Shown here: positions 7,145 to 11,601 of the stretch, piece after piece
Position numbering within the stretch: the stretch's first letter is position 1
Layout: each line of letters begins with the position of its first letter
Origin: a virus
IMG/VR virus record: IMGVR_UViG_3300028071_000006
Location: 1 to 26,431 of that record
Strand: one strand, 5' to 3'
Length of the DNA: 26,431 nucleotides
Position numbers and translations under genes: made by a program
The notes under the pieces: generated by a model
What the model was told of the DNA's origin: nothing
The model's database searches: none
What the model saw: only the letters and a program-made list of their open reading frames with translations

Positions 7145-9046
7145 TTACTCACCCTTGAAATCGTTGGGGAAGGCCGGGAACGGAGGGGCCAGTTTTTTGT
7201 TTGACATGATCAGCAAGCCCGTGTCTCCGCCGCATCCGTCCGGGTCAAATTCTCCGTACGGTAAGTCTACGCCGGCCGACACCGTGAGCGCCTTCGTGAA
7301 CGTGTCGAACAGGTCGGTCGTCTTCCACCAGACGATCTCGGTCTTCCCTGATACCTGCTGCCCGATCAAGATCGAGCCGTCAGAGACTCCGTCTTTCCAC
7401 GGGCTCTGCACGACCAGCGGCGGGCTGCGGTACACCGCGGGCCATAGGTCTTCTGGTAGGTCTTTTGTCACCCACGTAGCACCAAAGTCGGTCGTCAGCA
7501 TGATCTTCCAGGCCTTCGGGTTCCAGTGGCGGATCGGAACCATGATGCACCCCTCGCCGAACGACCAGTGCTGGCTCTTGGCTGCGTTGTCGGCCGCCCA
7601 AGACACAGTCGGGCCCGCGCACCCGGCAGCGATGTCTCCGTAGTACGTCAGGCTGTACAGATCATTGCGGACGAAGTCCGCAGGCATCACCACCGACGGC
7701 AGCCCCCACGAGGACAAGTCCAGAGCCGTGTACGGCAAGCGCCACGTCGTGCCGCTGCGCCCCATCCACCCGCGTTGGCCTCGCGCATCGAGTGGGCCGG
7801 TGACTCGCGAGCGCCATGCGTCGGCAGGCCAGGATGCTTGGGTGTACCCGTCGTCATCCCCGATGAACAGGACAGGGCGTGTCGTCGTGTTCGGCCCCGG
7901 CGCCGCCTGCGTGACATAGCCGGTCGTGTCCCCCGCGCTGAAGTACAGAAAATGCTTGCCCGCGCCCATGTACCCGATCAGCACGTGGGGCTCGATGCCC
8001 TGTAGTGCGCTCGAGTTGTATGGCAGTAGGTCTGCCGTCACCCACGGGCTGATGACTTCCTCCAGTACCGGCTCATGGACGATGGACCACGTCTCTCCGA
8101 AGTCGTCCGTACGTACCGTGTACACGGACAGGTTGTTCACGTTGTTCGCCGATACGTCGGCGTCTGTACAGGTGACGTACAGCGCTCGCGCTTTACCGCG
8201 CCCGGTACAGAACACACGCGACATGCTGCTTCGTCCGGACCCCACAGGCAACGTCGAGCAGTTTCGCGTGAACTTGGTGCTGAGTGCTTTCGTCTTCGTG
8301 TTTCCGATGGCGATCTGGTGACGGTACACCCCTACACCCAGCGTGTACGTGAGCGAGCTAACACCGAACACGTAGTCTCCGTCATCGTTTTGCCCGAGCG
8401 CAAAGACCCCGTATGGCGCGGCGCTCATGGACATGTCGGCAAGATGCTTGGCCGTGGAGTGTGTTGTCGTTGAGCGCAATTCTTGGAATGAGGTTGCCCC
8501 CGTCAACGCGTATGACACGGACTTGGAATCTTCTGCTGGCTCGTCTTCGGTGCCTGGGCGTTTCACGTACGTCAGTACGGGCCACGTACTGATGAACGAC
8601 CAGTTGGTAAACGGCACGTCGCGTTGGTAGGACTGCCGGCACCATAGGACGTACCCCCCACCCACATGCACTGCGCCCGTCCGTCCGTTGATGAACGACT
8701 TGGTCGCTCCGGGGATCGTCGGTACCGCCGGCACGGCTCCCATAGCGCTCGTGACGTTTGTCCCCTTTGATGCAGAGCCGCCGGTAAGGGCTCGGCTCAC
8801 GAGGGGCTTTTTGTTTGACGGTTCCGCGAAGTCTTGCTCAGTCGGCGTACTGAACACCGTGACGAGTCCCAGGTCGTCGGGCGTCTCGATCGTGCGCACG
8901 TAAGAGAACTCACCCGCTTTGTCGGCGATGGTGTTGCCGACGCGGCGGGTGAGGAAAGGGGCGTCAACCATGTCGAGCGCCCGCGAAGCGGCTTGGCCCA
9001 CCGGGGACGGCGAGCCGAGCACTTTAGGGAACGGAAACTTTTTCAT
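7145..9046 (-). CDS. Sialidase-like beta-propeller tail protein with Asp-boxes (633 aa)
   Basis: 633-residue protein with two clear Asp-box (BNR) motifs: TDDFGETW at residues 313-320 and TTDFGATW at 518-525. A degenerate third, TTDLFDTF, follows nearer the C-terminus. Asp-boxes mark blades of sialidase-type and sortilin-type propellers (established family knowledge). The first 170 residues are likely a virion attachment region with little predicted enzyme content. The catalytic Arg triad and Tyr/Glu of true sialidases could not be confirmed, so it may be a glycan-binding or structural propeller and not an enzyme. The start overlaps the preceding gene by 23 bases and has no clear Shine-Dalgarno, so it probably depends on translational coupling. 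Flanked by ConA-like proteins, it fits a tail or receptor-recognition block. Confidence 0.65.
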   Translation of the reverse strand: MKKFPFPKVLGSPSPVGQAASRALDMVDAPFLTRRVGNTIADKAGEFSYVRTIETPDDLGLVTVFSTPTEQDFAEPSNKKPLVSRALTGGSASKGTNVTSAMGAVPAVPTIPGATKSFINGRTGAVHVGGGYVLWCRQSYQRDVPFTNWSFISTWPVLTYVKRPGTEDEPAEDSKSVSYALTGATSFQELRSTTTHSTAKHLADMSMSAAPYGVFALGQNDDGDYVFGVSSLTYTLGVGVYRHQIAIGNTKTKALSTKFTRNCSTLPVGSGRSSMSRVFCTGRGKARALYVTCTDADVSANNVNNLSVYTVRTDDFGETWSIVHEPVLEEVISPWVTADLLPYNSSALQGIEPHVLIGYMGAGKHFLYFSAGDTTGYVTQAAPGPNTTTRPVLFIGDDDGYTQASWPADAWRSRVTGPLDARGQRGWMGRSGTTWRLPYTALDLSSWGLPSVVMPADFVRNDLYSLTYYGDIAAGCAGPTVSWAADNAAKSQHWSFGEGCIMVPIRHWNPKAWKIMLTTDFGATWVTKDLPEDLWPAVYRSPPLVVQSPWKDGVSDGSILIGQQVSGKTEIVWWKTTDLFDTFTKALTVSAGVDLPYGEFDPDGCGGDTGLLIMSNKKLAPPFPAFPNDFKGE

Positions 9047-9620
9047 TCGTCAAGTTGAAGAAGGTCCAGAACTCTCGTGCGACGGCGGGGGTACGGGTCG
9101 TGTTGCCGTCGATCTGCAGTCGCTCCACATACCCTGAGCCGAACGCCCGCACGGCGACGCGGTGTGCACGTCGCTCGTCTTCCGGCACCGCGATCAGGCT
9201 GGTCGTGGTCGACTGCGTCGCTCCGTTGACATACAGCCGCTGCAGCGTCGGCGAGAACGACAAGGTGACGGCAATGTCGTCTACGAGGTTTGAGCCCGAG
9301 TCGGGGTAGTTCGATGTGTAGTTGCGCGTATAGGACAACGCAGACGCCCACATCTCGGTGAATGATCCCGATGTGTAGCGCATGTACCGCGAGGAAACGA
9401 CGATGTCGGAAAACGTGTCGTAGTGAGGGGCATCTGGGTTGCGGAAGCAGCACAGCTGCAGGTAGCTCTGGTGCGCAGGGTCCACGGAGTCCTCGCCCAT
9501 CGTCAACACGATGTCTACCCCGTGCACGCGCTGCTCAACTCCGTTCACGATGGGGTTCGTGGTGCTCGACATGCCCGATACGATCAGGTCGAGCGTGAAC
9601 TCGGATGGGTAGGTACTCAT
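9024..9620 (-). CDS. ConA/LamG-like virion protein, second half of a split domain (198 aa)
   Basis: 198-residue beta-rich protein. Residues 125-136 (TLQRLYVNGATQ) and the following RVAVRAFGSGYVERLQI (154-170) match TMARVYVNGTMT and LMTVREFGAYRTTDIYSVRM of the upstream protein, the usual LamG/concanavalin pattern of a strand carrying (V/L)YVNG followed by two strands. The ATG overlaps the upstream TGA (ATGA). The protein begins where the domain's early strands should already have occurred, while the last 81 residues of the upstream protein look like those missing early strands. So this is probably the downstream part of a duplicated domain, made either as a separate chain by reinitiation or joined by a frameshift. 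Function is likely a virion surface or tail module; no catalytic motif is seen. Confidence 0.62.
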   Translation of the reverse strand: MSTYPSEFTLDLIVSGMSSTTNPIVNGVEQRVHGVDIVLTMGEDSVDPAHQSYLQLCCFRNPDAPHYDTFSDIVVSSRYMRYTSGSFTEMWASALSYTRNYTSNYPDSGSNLVDDIAVTLSFSPTLQRLYVNGATQSTTTSLIAVPEDERRAHRVAVRAFGSGYVERLQIDGNTTRTPAVAREFWTFFNLTNEKVSVP

Positions 9621-10633
9621 TCGCCGACCTTCAGTGCTTTGTCGTTACGGCCGCCGTACGGCAGGTATCGCGTGTTGGTGCCTGTGCCGTCGAGTACCGG
9701 ATCGCTGCCGGAATAGCTCAGGCGGTTCTCCATGTACAGCTTGCCGGCCCCGTTGAGCACGGCGGTCGTGTTGGCGTCAGTGTCGTTGACCCAGTTGCCA
9801 AACGCCGTGACCTCGGGGGCTCGTCCTGTCGGTACTGCGCCTGCGGCACCTTCCATCTCGTCGCGTAGCAGTGTGCTCAAGTCCATCGGGAAGTACTCAC
9901 CGCGGATGGTGAACATGCGCACCGAGTAAATGTCAGTCGTTCGGTATGCACCGAACTCTCGCACCGTCATCAAAAAGGGCATGCGTGCTCGACGGGCACC
10001 GACGTCAACTTCGTTCGTCATGGTGCCGTTGACGTACACCCTGGCCATCGTGTCTTTCAGCCGCACGTACACGGTAGACCGCAGCGAGTTTGCAACCAGT
10101 CCGCTCGACGTAGCGTCGATGACGTACCGGGTGCCTCCATTGCAAACGATGACCTGAATCGCGTGCGTCGAGCCAGAGGGGGTGACCTTGATCTGCACCG
10201 ACGTGACCGTTGCAGAGGCCGCTGAGCAGTCCCGTGCATAGGATTGCGCCGACGTGCCGCCGTAATGATGCGTGAGTTCCAGCGGAAACGGCGTCCCGGT
10301 TGTGGACGGTGCTTGCATCTGGTACTGCAACTCCAGGCCGATGTCGGCATCGCGTGCGTTGGGGTCGCCCGGAAAGTCAGTGAGCACCGATTCGGTATAA
10401 GGCGTGGTGTACCACTCACGCGGATCCACCACGCCCGAGCCAGGGGACGTGAAGCGCGCACCGGGGTACATGGTGCCGCCCGAGAGGACCTGCGCAGTGG
10501 ACGCGGGCGACCCTGTGGGTCGCCGCCATTTGGCACCGGATGCTGCCTGGAAGCCGATCAGGCCCCCTAGCGTCGATGAATTCGTGCTGAGCACGGAGGT
10601 GTTTGACGCAAAGTCATCGAACACAGACAGCAT
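9617..10633 (-). CDS. ConA/LamG-like virion protein (338 aa), ends inside a second domain copy
   Basis: 338-residue beta-rich protein. Residues 1-246 form one complete ConA/LamG-like domain: it opens with FDDFASNT, has a mid-domain strand IGLELQYQMQ (98-107) and the diagnostic RVYVNG (198-203). Residues 258-338 restart the same pattern (DEMEGAAG, then FGNWVND) and stop at ...KALKVGE, about a third of the way through a second copy. The next gene, in the -1 frame, supplies the remaining strands. The ATG at 10633 is preceded by TAAGGGGG, where TAA is the upstream stop. Likely a tail or capsid surface protein. What is seen is the internal homology; the fold name is inferred from the pattern and was not computed. 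Confidence 0.65.
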   Translation of the reverse strand: MLSVFDDFASNTSVLSTNSSTLGGLIGFQAASGAKWRRPTGSPASTAQVLSGGTMYPGARFTSPGSGVVDPREWYTTPYTESVLTDFPGDPNARDADIGLELQYQMQAPSTTGTPFPLELTHHYGGTSAQSYARDCSAASATVTSVQIKVTPSGSTHAIQVIVCNGGTRYVIDATSSGLVANSLRSTVYVRLKDTMARVYVNGTMTNEVDVGARRARMPFLMTVREFGAYRTTDIYSVRMFTIRGEYFPMDLSTLLRDEMEGAAGAVPTGRAPEVTAFGNWVNDTDANTTAVLNGAGKLYMENRLSYSGSDPVLDGTGTNTRYLPYGGRNDKALKVGE

Positions 10634-10643
10634 CTTTGCCCCC

Positions 10644-11084
10644 TTACAGCGTCGGCAGAGCCACGCTGTAGTAGTCGACCGTCTGAGTCGCGCCCGACGT
10701 CAGCGTGGTGCTGCTCAGGTTCAGCTCAGCACCGGCCGTGGCGATTTCACCTTGCAGGCGGGCCTGGGTGGTCGAAGACGCGCCCGTGTCGCTGGCGGCG
10801 ACGTGGCGGTAGTAGGTTGCAGCGCCCGACAAGGCGACGACGCCTGACCACGTCTCCGACGTGCTTTTGGCCAGCACGCCGCCCGTCGCGGTGCTGGCCA
10901 TGTTCACACCGGTGCCGGTGCTGTTCAGGCTGATCGTGCACAGCAGACTGCCGGACGCCGCGTCATCGGCGCTGGCCGGCGGGGTGCCCGAGTAGATTTT
11001 GATGAGACCGCCCGCCATCAACGTGGCGAGGGAGCCGGTGTCCAGCAGCTTGTTGCGCAGGCCGGTCGAAACTTTCAAGGTCAT
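10644..11084 (-). CDS. Small virion protein (146 aa)
   Basis: 146-residue protein, rich in Thr, Ser, Ala and Gly, predicted beta. It starts MTLKVSTGLRNKLLDTG and contains IKIYSGTPPASADDAASG at residues 28-45, a signature I associate with small phage proteins found in podovirus tail regions; no function is established that I can name. The start is fixed by TAAGGAG seven bases upstream of the ATG, the TAA being the stop of the preceding gene. It lies between another small virion protein and the ConA-like pair, in the same transcription unit, and is most likely a tail or head surface component. Assignment to the virion is by context. Confidence 0.6.
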   Translation of the reverse strand: MTLKVSTGLRNKLLDTGSLATLMAGGLIKIYSGTPPASADDAASGSLLCTISLNSTGTGVNMASTATGGVLAKSTSETWSGVVALSGAATYYRHVAASDTGASSTTQARLQGEIATAGAELNLSSTTLTSGATQTVDYYSVALPTL

Positions 11085-11090
11085 GGAGGA

Positions 11091-11097
11091 CTCCTTA
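11091..11097 (-). promoter_or_regulatory. Stop codon embedded in Shine-Dalgarno (TAAGGAG) for the 146-aa gene
   Basis: The minus strand reads TAAGGAGTCCTCCATG. TAA ends the 168-residue gene and the overlapping AAGGAG serves the 146-residue gene, fixing its start at 11084. Confidence 0.75.
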
Positions 11098-11601
11098 GCT
11101 GGTGGAGACGAGAGAGATGCCGGCCGTCACGCGCAGGATCGAACCGACGTCGAGGACTTTGGGCGAGGAAAAGCGGACCACTGACAGCAGCACGCCGGCC
11201 GTGCTACCGACCGATTGTGCCGAGACGAGGAAACCGCCGTAGATGGTCTCGGCTGAGGCCATCGTGAACTCGGCCTTGTTGTCGTGGTTGTCGCAGACGC
11301 CGCCCGTCACCGTCGAGCCGACAAAAGCCAAACGGTTGGAGCCGTAAGCAGACGACTCAACCGCGTTCGCGCTGATGTTCGCGGCCGTGTCGTTCGTGTT
11401 CGGCGTGTAGGCGCCTTTGTACAGCCCGATGTACCACGAGGCGAACTGCGAACTGCCTTTCAGGACAACGCCGAGCATGTGGTTGAGGCCCTGGAGCGGC
11501 ATCAGGTTGTCGACGATTTCGCTGTCCGTGACCTCGCCGTCTTTGTTGACGACCTCGATCAGGTATTTGAAGCCGACAGGGAGGGTGGTGATGGCGTTCA
11601 T
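11095..11601 (-). CDS. Virion protein of unknown function (168 aa)
   Basis: 168-residue protein. The pattern LMPLQGLNHMLGVVLKG (33-49), followed by SWYIGLYKGAYTP (55-67), then ESSAYG, KAEFT and a C-terminal VLDVGSILRVTAGISL, is one I recognise from podovirus-like phages as a small conserved structural protein, but its exact role is not known to me. The ATG overlaps the TGA of the preceding 420-residue gene (ATGA), so the two are translationally coupled. It may be a tail-associated or capsid decoration protein. Confidence in the gene is high; confidence in a precise function is low. Confidence 0.62.
   Translation of the reverse strand: MNAITTLPVGFKYLIEVVNKDGEVTDSEIVDNLMPLQGLNHMLGVVLKGSSQFASWYIGLYKGAYTPNTNDTAANISANAVESSAYGSNRLAFVGSTVTGGVCDNHDNKAEFTMASAETIYGGFLVSAQSVGSTAGVLLSVVRFSSPKVLDVGSILRVTAGISLVSTS

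Follow-up and report, generated by a model that had tools for sequence, protein, structure and literature searches.

In KPP25-like and Acidovorax AP1-like podoviruses the genes of the virion block follow a common order, with the portal gene succeeded by a gene of the type here called P0004 and then by one of the P0005 type. The same order is found in the stretch of viral DNA analysed here, the 26.4-kb IMG/VR virus record IMGVR_UViG_3300028071_000006 (the whole of which is called the window), and, as in the KPP25-like genome, a P0012-like gene comes after it. The KPP25-like genome differs from the window in that the P0005 gene stands immediately after P0004 with nothing between them. In AP1 no P0012-like gene was detected and other genes occupy the slot, one of them ending in the same C-terminal tag, FW-x7-E, that is described below. 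In the window the slot is filled by two overlapping genes, P0001 (gene 1, 338 amino acids) and P0002 (gene 2, 198 amino acids), which have no counterpart in the phage collection (zero matches in 50,697 phage records). Here, we show that both reading frames are maintained, that the join between them bears no frameshift signature that we could find and that P0002 ends in a motif common to many proteins of this phage group. At a probability which we place just short of even, we favour the reading that P0001 and P0002 are translated separately and assemble as subunits of a single, variable protein of the virion surface, gene 2 being fixed by its tag and the tail of gene 1 docking on it.

Both genes lie on the minus strand. 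Gene 1 (9617-10633) encodes an N-terminal extension, a putative concanavalin A (ConA)/LamG-like core and a C-terminal tail of about 80 residues, and gene 2 (9024-9620) a domain resembling a beta-sandwich, followed by the FW-x7-E motif. Their junction is as the preliminary description of this DNA had given it, namely an ATGA overlap (9617-9620) of the gene 1 stop TGA with the gene 2 start ATG, the frame of gene 2 being -1 relative to that of gene 1. Scans of IMG/VR with P0001 and with P0002 returned the same four other records, all with the identical split and the identical ATGA. Three of them show 0, 0 and 1 mismatches in 1610 bases when compared with the window and may all come from one virus. 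In the fourth, L005, 214 of the 1610 bases are different, with no insertion or deletion; the evidence on conservation covers two distinct lineages, the window type and L005. Against L005 the ratio of nonsynonymous to synonymous divergence (dN/dS) in the proper frame is 0.038 for residues 1-256 of P0001, 0.059 for its tail (residues 257-338) and 0.079 for P0002, whereas in the two wrong frames the tail has ratios of 2.6 and 6.0 and P0002 ratios of 2.0 and 8.6. Both pieces are kept under purifying selection in their own frames right up to the join, and by this comparison the gene split looks real and maintained. Translation of the pair is probably coupled by termination and reinitiation through the ATGA. 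A Shine-Dalgarno-like stretch, GAAGG, is located 7 nucleotides (nt) 5' of the gene 2 ATG, and its anti-Shine-Dalgarno energy (-4.9) lies between the extremes of the 14 gene starts that were tried.

The preliminary description had considered a frameshift, be it natural, programmed or a sequencing error, as the origin of the split. One gene broken recently, or broken only in the reads or the assembly, would agree with the single-chain proteins of similar type that some other phages have in this slot. Yet all four other records carry the split, one of them clearly diverged and free of indels, purifying selection acts on either side of the join, and the join coincides exactly with a start codon. 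Sequencing error and recent breakage were rejected on the strength of the shared split and of dN/dS in both frames; error is thereby excluded, recent natural breakage is very unlikely given that the diverged L005 has the same split under selection, and to the two together we assign a negligible probability. Programmed -1 frameshifting is used by phages in tail genes and could here add a small share of P0001-P0002 fusion to the two individual products: the -1 frame follows on directly, and the tail might form the beginning of a second domain. This has little to recommend it, because the second frame opens just 24 nt before its ATG (the two frames could be joined by a -1 slip only at 9621-9647, minus strand, a zone that holds the GAAGG stretch and is closed upstream by TAA in the window, by TAG in L005) and the RNA there shows nothing out of the ordinary. 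Around the join (9540-9690) the fold has a z of +0.52 against 200 shuffles, 130 of which folded as well, in a model with pseudoknots left out. A slippery heptamer of the XXXYYYZ form is missing from the 24-nt zone both in the window, where its absence had already been noticed, and in L005, and gene 2 has its own ATG; a programmed shift thus appears very improbable. With sequencing error, recent breakage and frameshift set aside, the products are therefore two chains.

The second line of evidence concerns the end of P0002. Its motif (FWTFFNLTNE, 9042-9071, minus strand) was first noticed by reading proteins and was counted afterwards, the tag being defined as FW (or W replacing F), seven residues and E, all within 14 residues of the C-terminus. 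Loci, cited here by numbers with the prefix L, were gathered by means of P0004-, P0005- and P0012-like genes. The tag is present on 26 of 1082 distinct open reading frames (ORFs) from the strands bearing these markers and on 0 of 1262 ORFs of other strands, a weak control that consists mostly of antisense ORFs. Shuffling of the last 40 residues led to 0.59 carriers on average and to at most 4 in 300 rounds. With the last 25 residues disregarded, 20 groups of dissimilar bodies can be told apart among the 26 carriers. Beside the window these carriers comprise 25 ORFs in L005, L014, L016, L025, L027, L030-L034, L037, L051, L052, L056, L057 (two), L072, L098, L102, L103, L107, L108, L114, L116 and L117. 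At least one carrier occurs in 19 of 39 P0004-to-P0012 blocks, in 13 of the 19 between both marker genes; the blocks are distinct by their P0004-like sequence, window type and L005 counting as two, and variants without E, with x8 or with an internal motif (L097, L100, L099, L022, L029) are left out of the count. From its distribution FW-x7-E appears to be a portable anchor tag for variable proteins of KPP25/AP1-like podoviruses, and since the motif spans dissimilar bodies P0002 would be anchored through it as well. Such a tag would make candidate receptor-binding proteins findable by their C-terminus, even where the bodies have no sequence likeness. The part of the literature covered by our search held no description of the tag or of the P0001/P0002 split, which is not proof of absence. 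Passages of PMC11597636 gave no link between the AP1 proteins tested in that study and this gene block.

The contents of the slot vary among the loci inspected. Single-chain proteins with a DDF-type start are found in L031 (223 amino acids), L052 (226), L097 (216) and L100 (214). The protein of L031 resembles Laminin_G_3 below the Pfam cut-off (E 8.6e-4); for those of L052, L097, L100, L022 and L029 the label ConA-like is ours and was given by pattern, Pfam having no such match. The ConA-like nature of the unsplit tagged relatives is weakly supported. Those of L031 and L052 share with the window system the slot after the P0004-like gene, the DDF-type start and the C-terminal FW-x7-E, but they are one chain with one domain, whereas in the window there are two chains, with a further domain upstream. 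Their pairwise sequence likeness to the window proteins is weak, and L052 has no Pfam match at all. Neither has a relative in the 50,697 phage records at E 0.1. The AP1 slot protein has the C-terminal tag alone in common with P0002, BLASTP finding nothing of note between them. A different kind of split occurs in L029 (IMGVR_UViG_2918748958_000001, 8447-10246), where two ORFs in the same frame are parted by TAA and one codon; there are two DDF-type stretches, the in-frame TAA after the second and then the further ORF. As we read it, L029 is like the window in having a gene with a DDF-type domain and the start of a second, a stop, and then the rest with FW-x7-E. It differs in that the frame does not change, in that FW-x7-E lies inside the protein, ahead of a galactose-binding-like stretch (PF23623, E 9e-6, narrowly under the cut-off), and in that Pfam finds no ConA match. 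The arrangement is known from one record only, a scan with the first L029 gene yielding no further record, and this split may be a nonsense mutation or an error. The L029 tail has one partial match in the 50,697 records, in a Rhizobium phage (E 0.04). A search with a P0012 profile hit all 4 of the seed genomes and, among those drawn, 3 of 399 and 3 of 369, with the seed as part of each count; the four new stretches contained no tagged protein by pattern search, and a scan with the start of P0003, the gene next to P0002, gave no records beyond those in the set.

P0001 can be divided into an N-terminal extension (residues 1-96, VFDDF...AKW, 10346-10633), which is possibly like the start of the unsplit proteins in related phages, the core with RVYVNG (residues 97-246, 9896-10345) and the tail (residues 257-338, RDEM...KVGE, 9620-9865), for which we propose a role as docking segment or as start of a second domain; all three are on the minus strand. 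Its AlphaFold2 (AF2) model is of low confidence (mean predicted local distance difference test, pLDDT, 37; predicted TM-score, pTM, 0.46) with nine strands at 98-226. Among PDB structures Foldseek places GH16 glucanases at the top (best E 1.1e-5, TM-score 0.22) and LNS, galectin and LamG domains lower in the list, and VIA-align returned mostly PAPP-A, LNS/LamG, GH16 and pentraxin-like chains over residues 97-262 or so. In Pfam the 246-residue N-terminal piece meets Laminin_G_3 (PF13385, ConA-like lectin/glucanase superfamily) at residues 142-211 with E 0.058 and 14 bits, under the curated cut-off of 27.6; the family is absent for full-length P0001 at E up to 1 and for the L005 copy, and P0002 has no match to it. 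The core, at about residues 97-262, may have a ConA/LamG-like fold, the same class as that of the Pfam family.

For P0002 the model, again of low confidence (pLDDT 46), shows ten strands (12-171), and the FW motif forms a short helix at 184-188. In the PDB, Foldseek returned nothing that reached E 0.001; in a viral structure library ten matches were at this level or better under mixed names. Minor tail, plant-virus and further proteins were among the matches in that library (best E 2.7e-4). VIA-align gave galectin, SPRY, fructofuranosidase and other sandwiches, and further PDB structure matches were fructofuranosidase sandwich domains, the pilin PilC, toxin binding domains and PL7 lyases. Because the matches spread beyond ConA-like, galectin and SPRY folds, the model singles out no one family; P0002 looks beta-sandwich-like and may fold alone. 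The ConA/LamG-like label given to both copies in the preliminary description fits P0001 and is plausible for P0002. The sandwich folds of both proteins are weakly supported, and models as poor as these suggest the fold class alone. No solved relative of either was found in the PDB by sequence: P0001 and the L031 protein had no match at E 5 and 1, and P0002 had three at chance level (E 0.27-0.77).

It had further been proposed that the tail of P0001 and P0002 together form a second copy of the domain in the first 246 residues of P0001. The correspondence of RVYVNG in P0001 with RLYVNG in P0002, on which this proposal drew, is real but small (a BLASTP match of 48 columns with 35% identity, E 0.058 in a single comparison). 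As a whole the duplication did not stand out from chance in the sequence tests. In profile-profile comparison copy 1 and the joined copy 2 matched with probabilities of 0.9% and 1.7%, the joined copy 2 reached at most 5.6% with the relatives, P0002 alone 8.3% with domain 1 of L029, and Pfam assigns the joined copy to no ConA-like family. Copy 1 against the joined copy 2 had p 0.61 in semi-global and 0.16 in local shuffle tests. For the core of copy 1 against P0002 and for the N-terminal extension against the tail, p was 0.035 and 0.10 in local tests (five pairs, uncorrected) and 0.378 and 0.694 in semi-global ones. Since controls outscored the test pairs, such shuffles are weak here: 6 of 13 unrelated control slices surpassed the pair of core 1 and P0002, two of these with strong scores (z 4.84 and 5.56), whereas the z of P0002 against the same 13 slices was at most 1.03. 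In local tests against seven partners with 400 shuffles each, no shuffle was as good as P0002 with domain 1 of L029 (p 0.0075 without the last 22 residues); p was 0.015 with L097, 0.0275 with L052, 0.065 with L022, 0.09 with copy 1 of the window and 0.45 with L031. The tail alone never fell below 0.055 with the seven partners, and its likeness by eye to L029 (RDEM..GRAP..W compared with RDEF..GRAP and RDDF..GR.P..W) was not significant (p 0.055 and 0.15). A domain-start profile of four relatives found P0001 residues 4-36 at E 0.01 as the best match outside its training set, L029 not being among its 22 best rows; with six relatives the P0001 N-terminus dropped to E 0.22 and rank 9, behind two other untrained matches. 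The diverged L005 copy had E 1.7 and 4.5 with the four- and six-sequence profiles. The tail ranked 87 and 92 in its two copies at about 0.5 bits, and an earlier version of the profile had no match in it. The two pieces did not match consecutive parts of one unsplit homologue, the relatives being too diverged to decide.

On the reading that we favour, P0001 and P0002 would be subunits that together make up one variable protein on the virion of a short-tailed, KPP25/AP1-like phage, most likely a surface appendage that binds carbohydrate. Position and neighbours argue for virion proteins, and variability and fold class for a surface, sugar-binding role. Gene 2 would supply a beta-sandwich subunit that the C-terminal tag holds on the virion, and P0001, which has its own ConA/LamG-like domain and lacks the tag, would enter the particle by packing its tail (about residues 257-338) onto gene 2, thereby replacing the N-terminal stretch found in-chain in the unsplit tagged relatives. 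We take each copy as an extension of roughly 80-95 residues and then a core; in copy 2 the chains would part where the extension gives way to the core. The P0002 model covers residues 5-178 or so, which puts the break at the start of that core and not clearly inside it. Docking is suggested because P0002 seems to be without a part that the unsplit tagged relatives have and P0001 carries an extra one; among the steps this is the new one, and it has the least support. A more far-reaching version holds that a lectin-like second domain is permanently divided over two co-translated chains, that strand complementation hangs an untagged receptor-binding subunit on a small FW-x7-E-anchored adaptor and that the tag is swapped among unrelated surface domains across the phage group; we regard it as unlikely. 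If the chains do share one domain, this would be a natural split lectin serving as an assembly joint in a virion. The preliminary description had entertained two chains assembling one domain, of which the two chains have held and for the shared domain the evidence decides neither way.

Several results weigh against the two-subunit reading with a docked tail. The P0002 model alone spans most of a sandwich, aligning over residues 5-178 or so with SPRY and galectin domains, and the sequence tests gave no significant link between the P0001 tail and either gene 2 or the domain starts of the relatives. Among the 50 matches listed, query-normalised TM-scores were 0.20-0.28 for P0001 and at most 0.38 for P0002; Z values of VIA-align were up to 8.5 for P0001 (PAPP-A 8.5, neurexin LNS 8.4) and at most 6.8 for P0002, and values near or below 8 are common according to the tool's own warning. 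The p of P0002 with domain 2 of L029 rose from 0.0025 to 0.195 without the last 22 residues, 20 of the 39 blocks have no C-terminal FW-x7-E under the strict rule, and the Shine-Dalgarno-like stretch of gene 2 was matched or bettered at 26% of 400 random positions. With a probability only a little lower than that of the favoured reading, the genes could instead encode two neighbouring virion proteins that each fold by themselves, the tail of P0001 being a linker or touching some other partner and the likeness of the cores reflecting a common fold class only. The extent of the P0002 model and the tail without a significant match speak for this, and ATGA overlaps are ordinary in phage operons. 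On the other hand, the proteins of L031 and L052 carry, as we read them, some 75-85 residues ahead of their P0002-like part, and the tail is constrained about like the adjoining coding sequence (dN/dS 0.059 against 0.038-0.079).

The pair is surrounded by virion families. The minus strand of the window encodes a P22-type portal (Pfam E 6e-93), a major head protein, an SU10-like adaptor, a head-closure protein and other virion families, the portal being about 45% identical to those of KPP25-like Pseudomonas phages and 39% to that of Acidovorax phage AP1. P0001 and P0002 sit between P0004 (10644-11084, minus strand; phrog_3758 virion structural protein), the upstream boundary gene of the block, and P0003 (7145-9046, minus strand), beside which P0005 (5276-7144) is located. 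Solved structures (44nx, 26gp, 26la) exist for relatives of four neighbours, P0004, P0005, P0012 (4281-5276) and the protein at 11095-11601, all named merely 'Structural protein'. P0003 has 633 amino acids, overlaps gene 2 by 23 nt and is BNR-like (BNR repeat at E 0.023, below the Pfam cut-off), with a relative in AP1 (E 2e-5 in a two-sequence comparison). When P0004 was compared with the P0001 core (10644-11084 and 9896-10351), the semi-global shuffle score was the top one among the controls (z 5.56; 0 of 300 shuffles as good). Along 7145-11084 the synonymous divergence (dS) between window and L005 is 0.31 in P0004, 0.99 in residues 1-256 of P0001, 0.66 in its tail, 0.16 in residues 1-60 of P0002, 0.39 in its residues 61-198 and 0.72 in P0003; because it shifts so sharply, mosaic exchange is suggested.

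Further proteins of related phages were observed in passing. L022 (4444-7431) encodes a chain of 995 amino acids in which a possibly ConA-like part with the FW motif is joined to a P0005-like protein. A KPP25-like protein of 649 amino acids has no PDB match by sequence. In L014 (16771-17943) a KPP25-like protein of 390 amino acids bears the FW tag and is annotated as 'photosystem II D1 protein'; it has weak BNR/sortilin-like matches only and, among PDB sequences, weak sialidase/BNR and GFP matches only (E 0.08 or more), and this name looks wrong.

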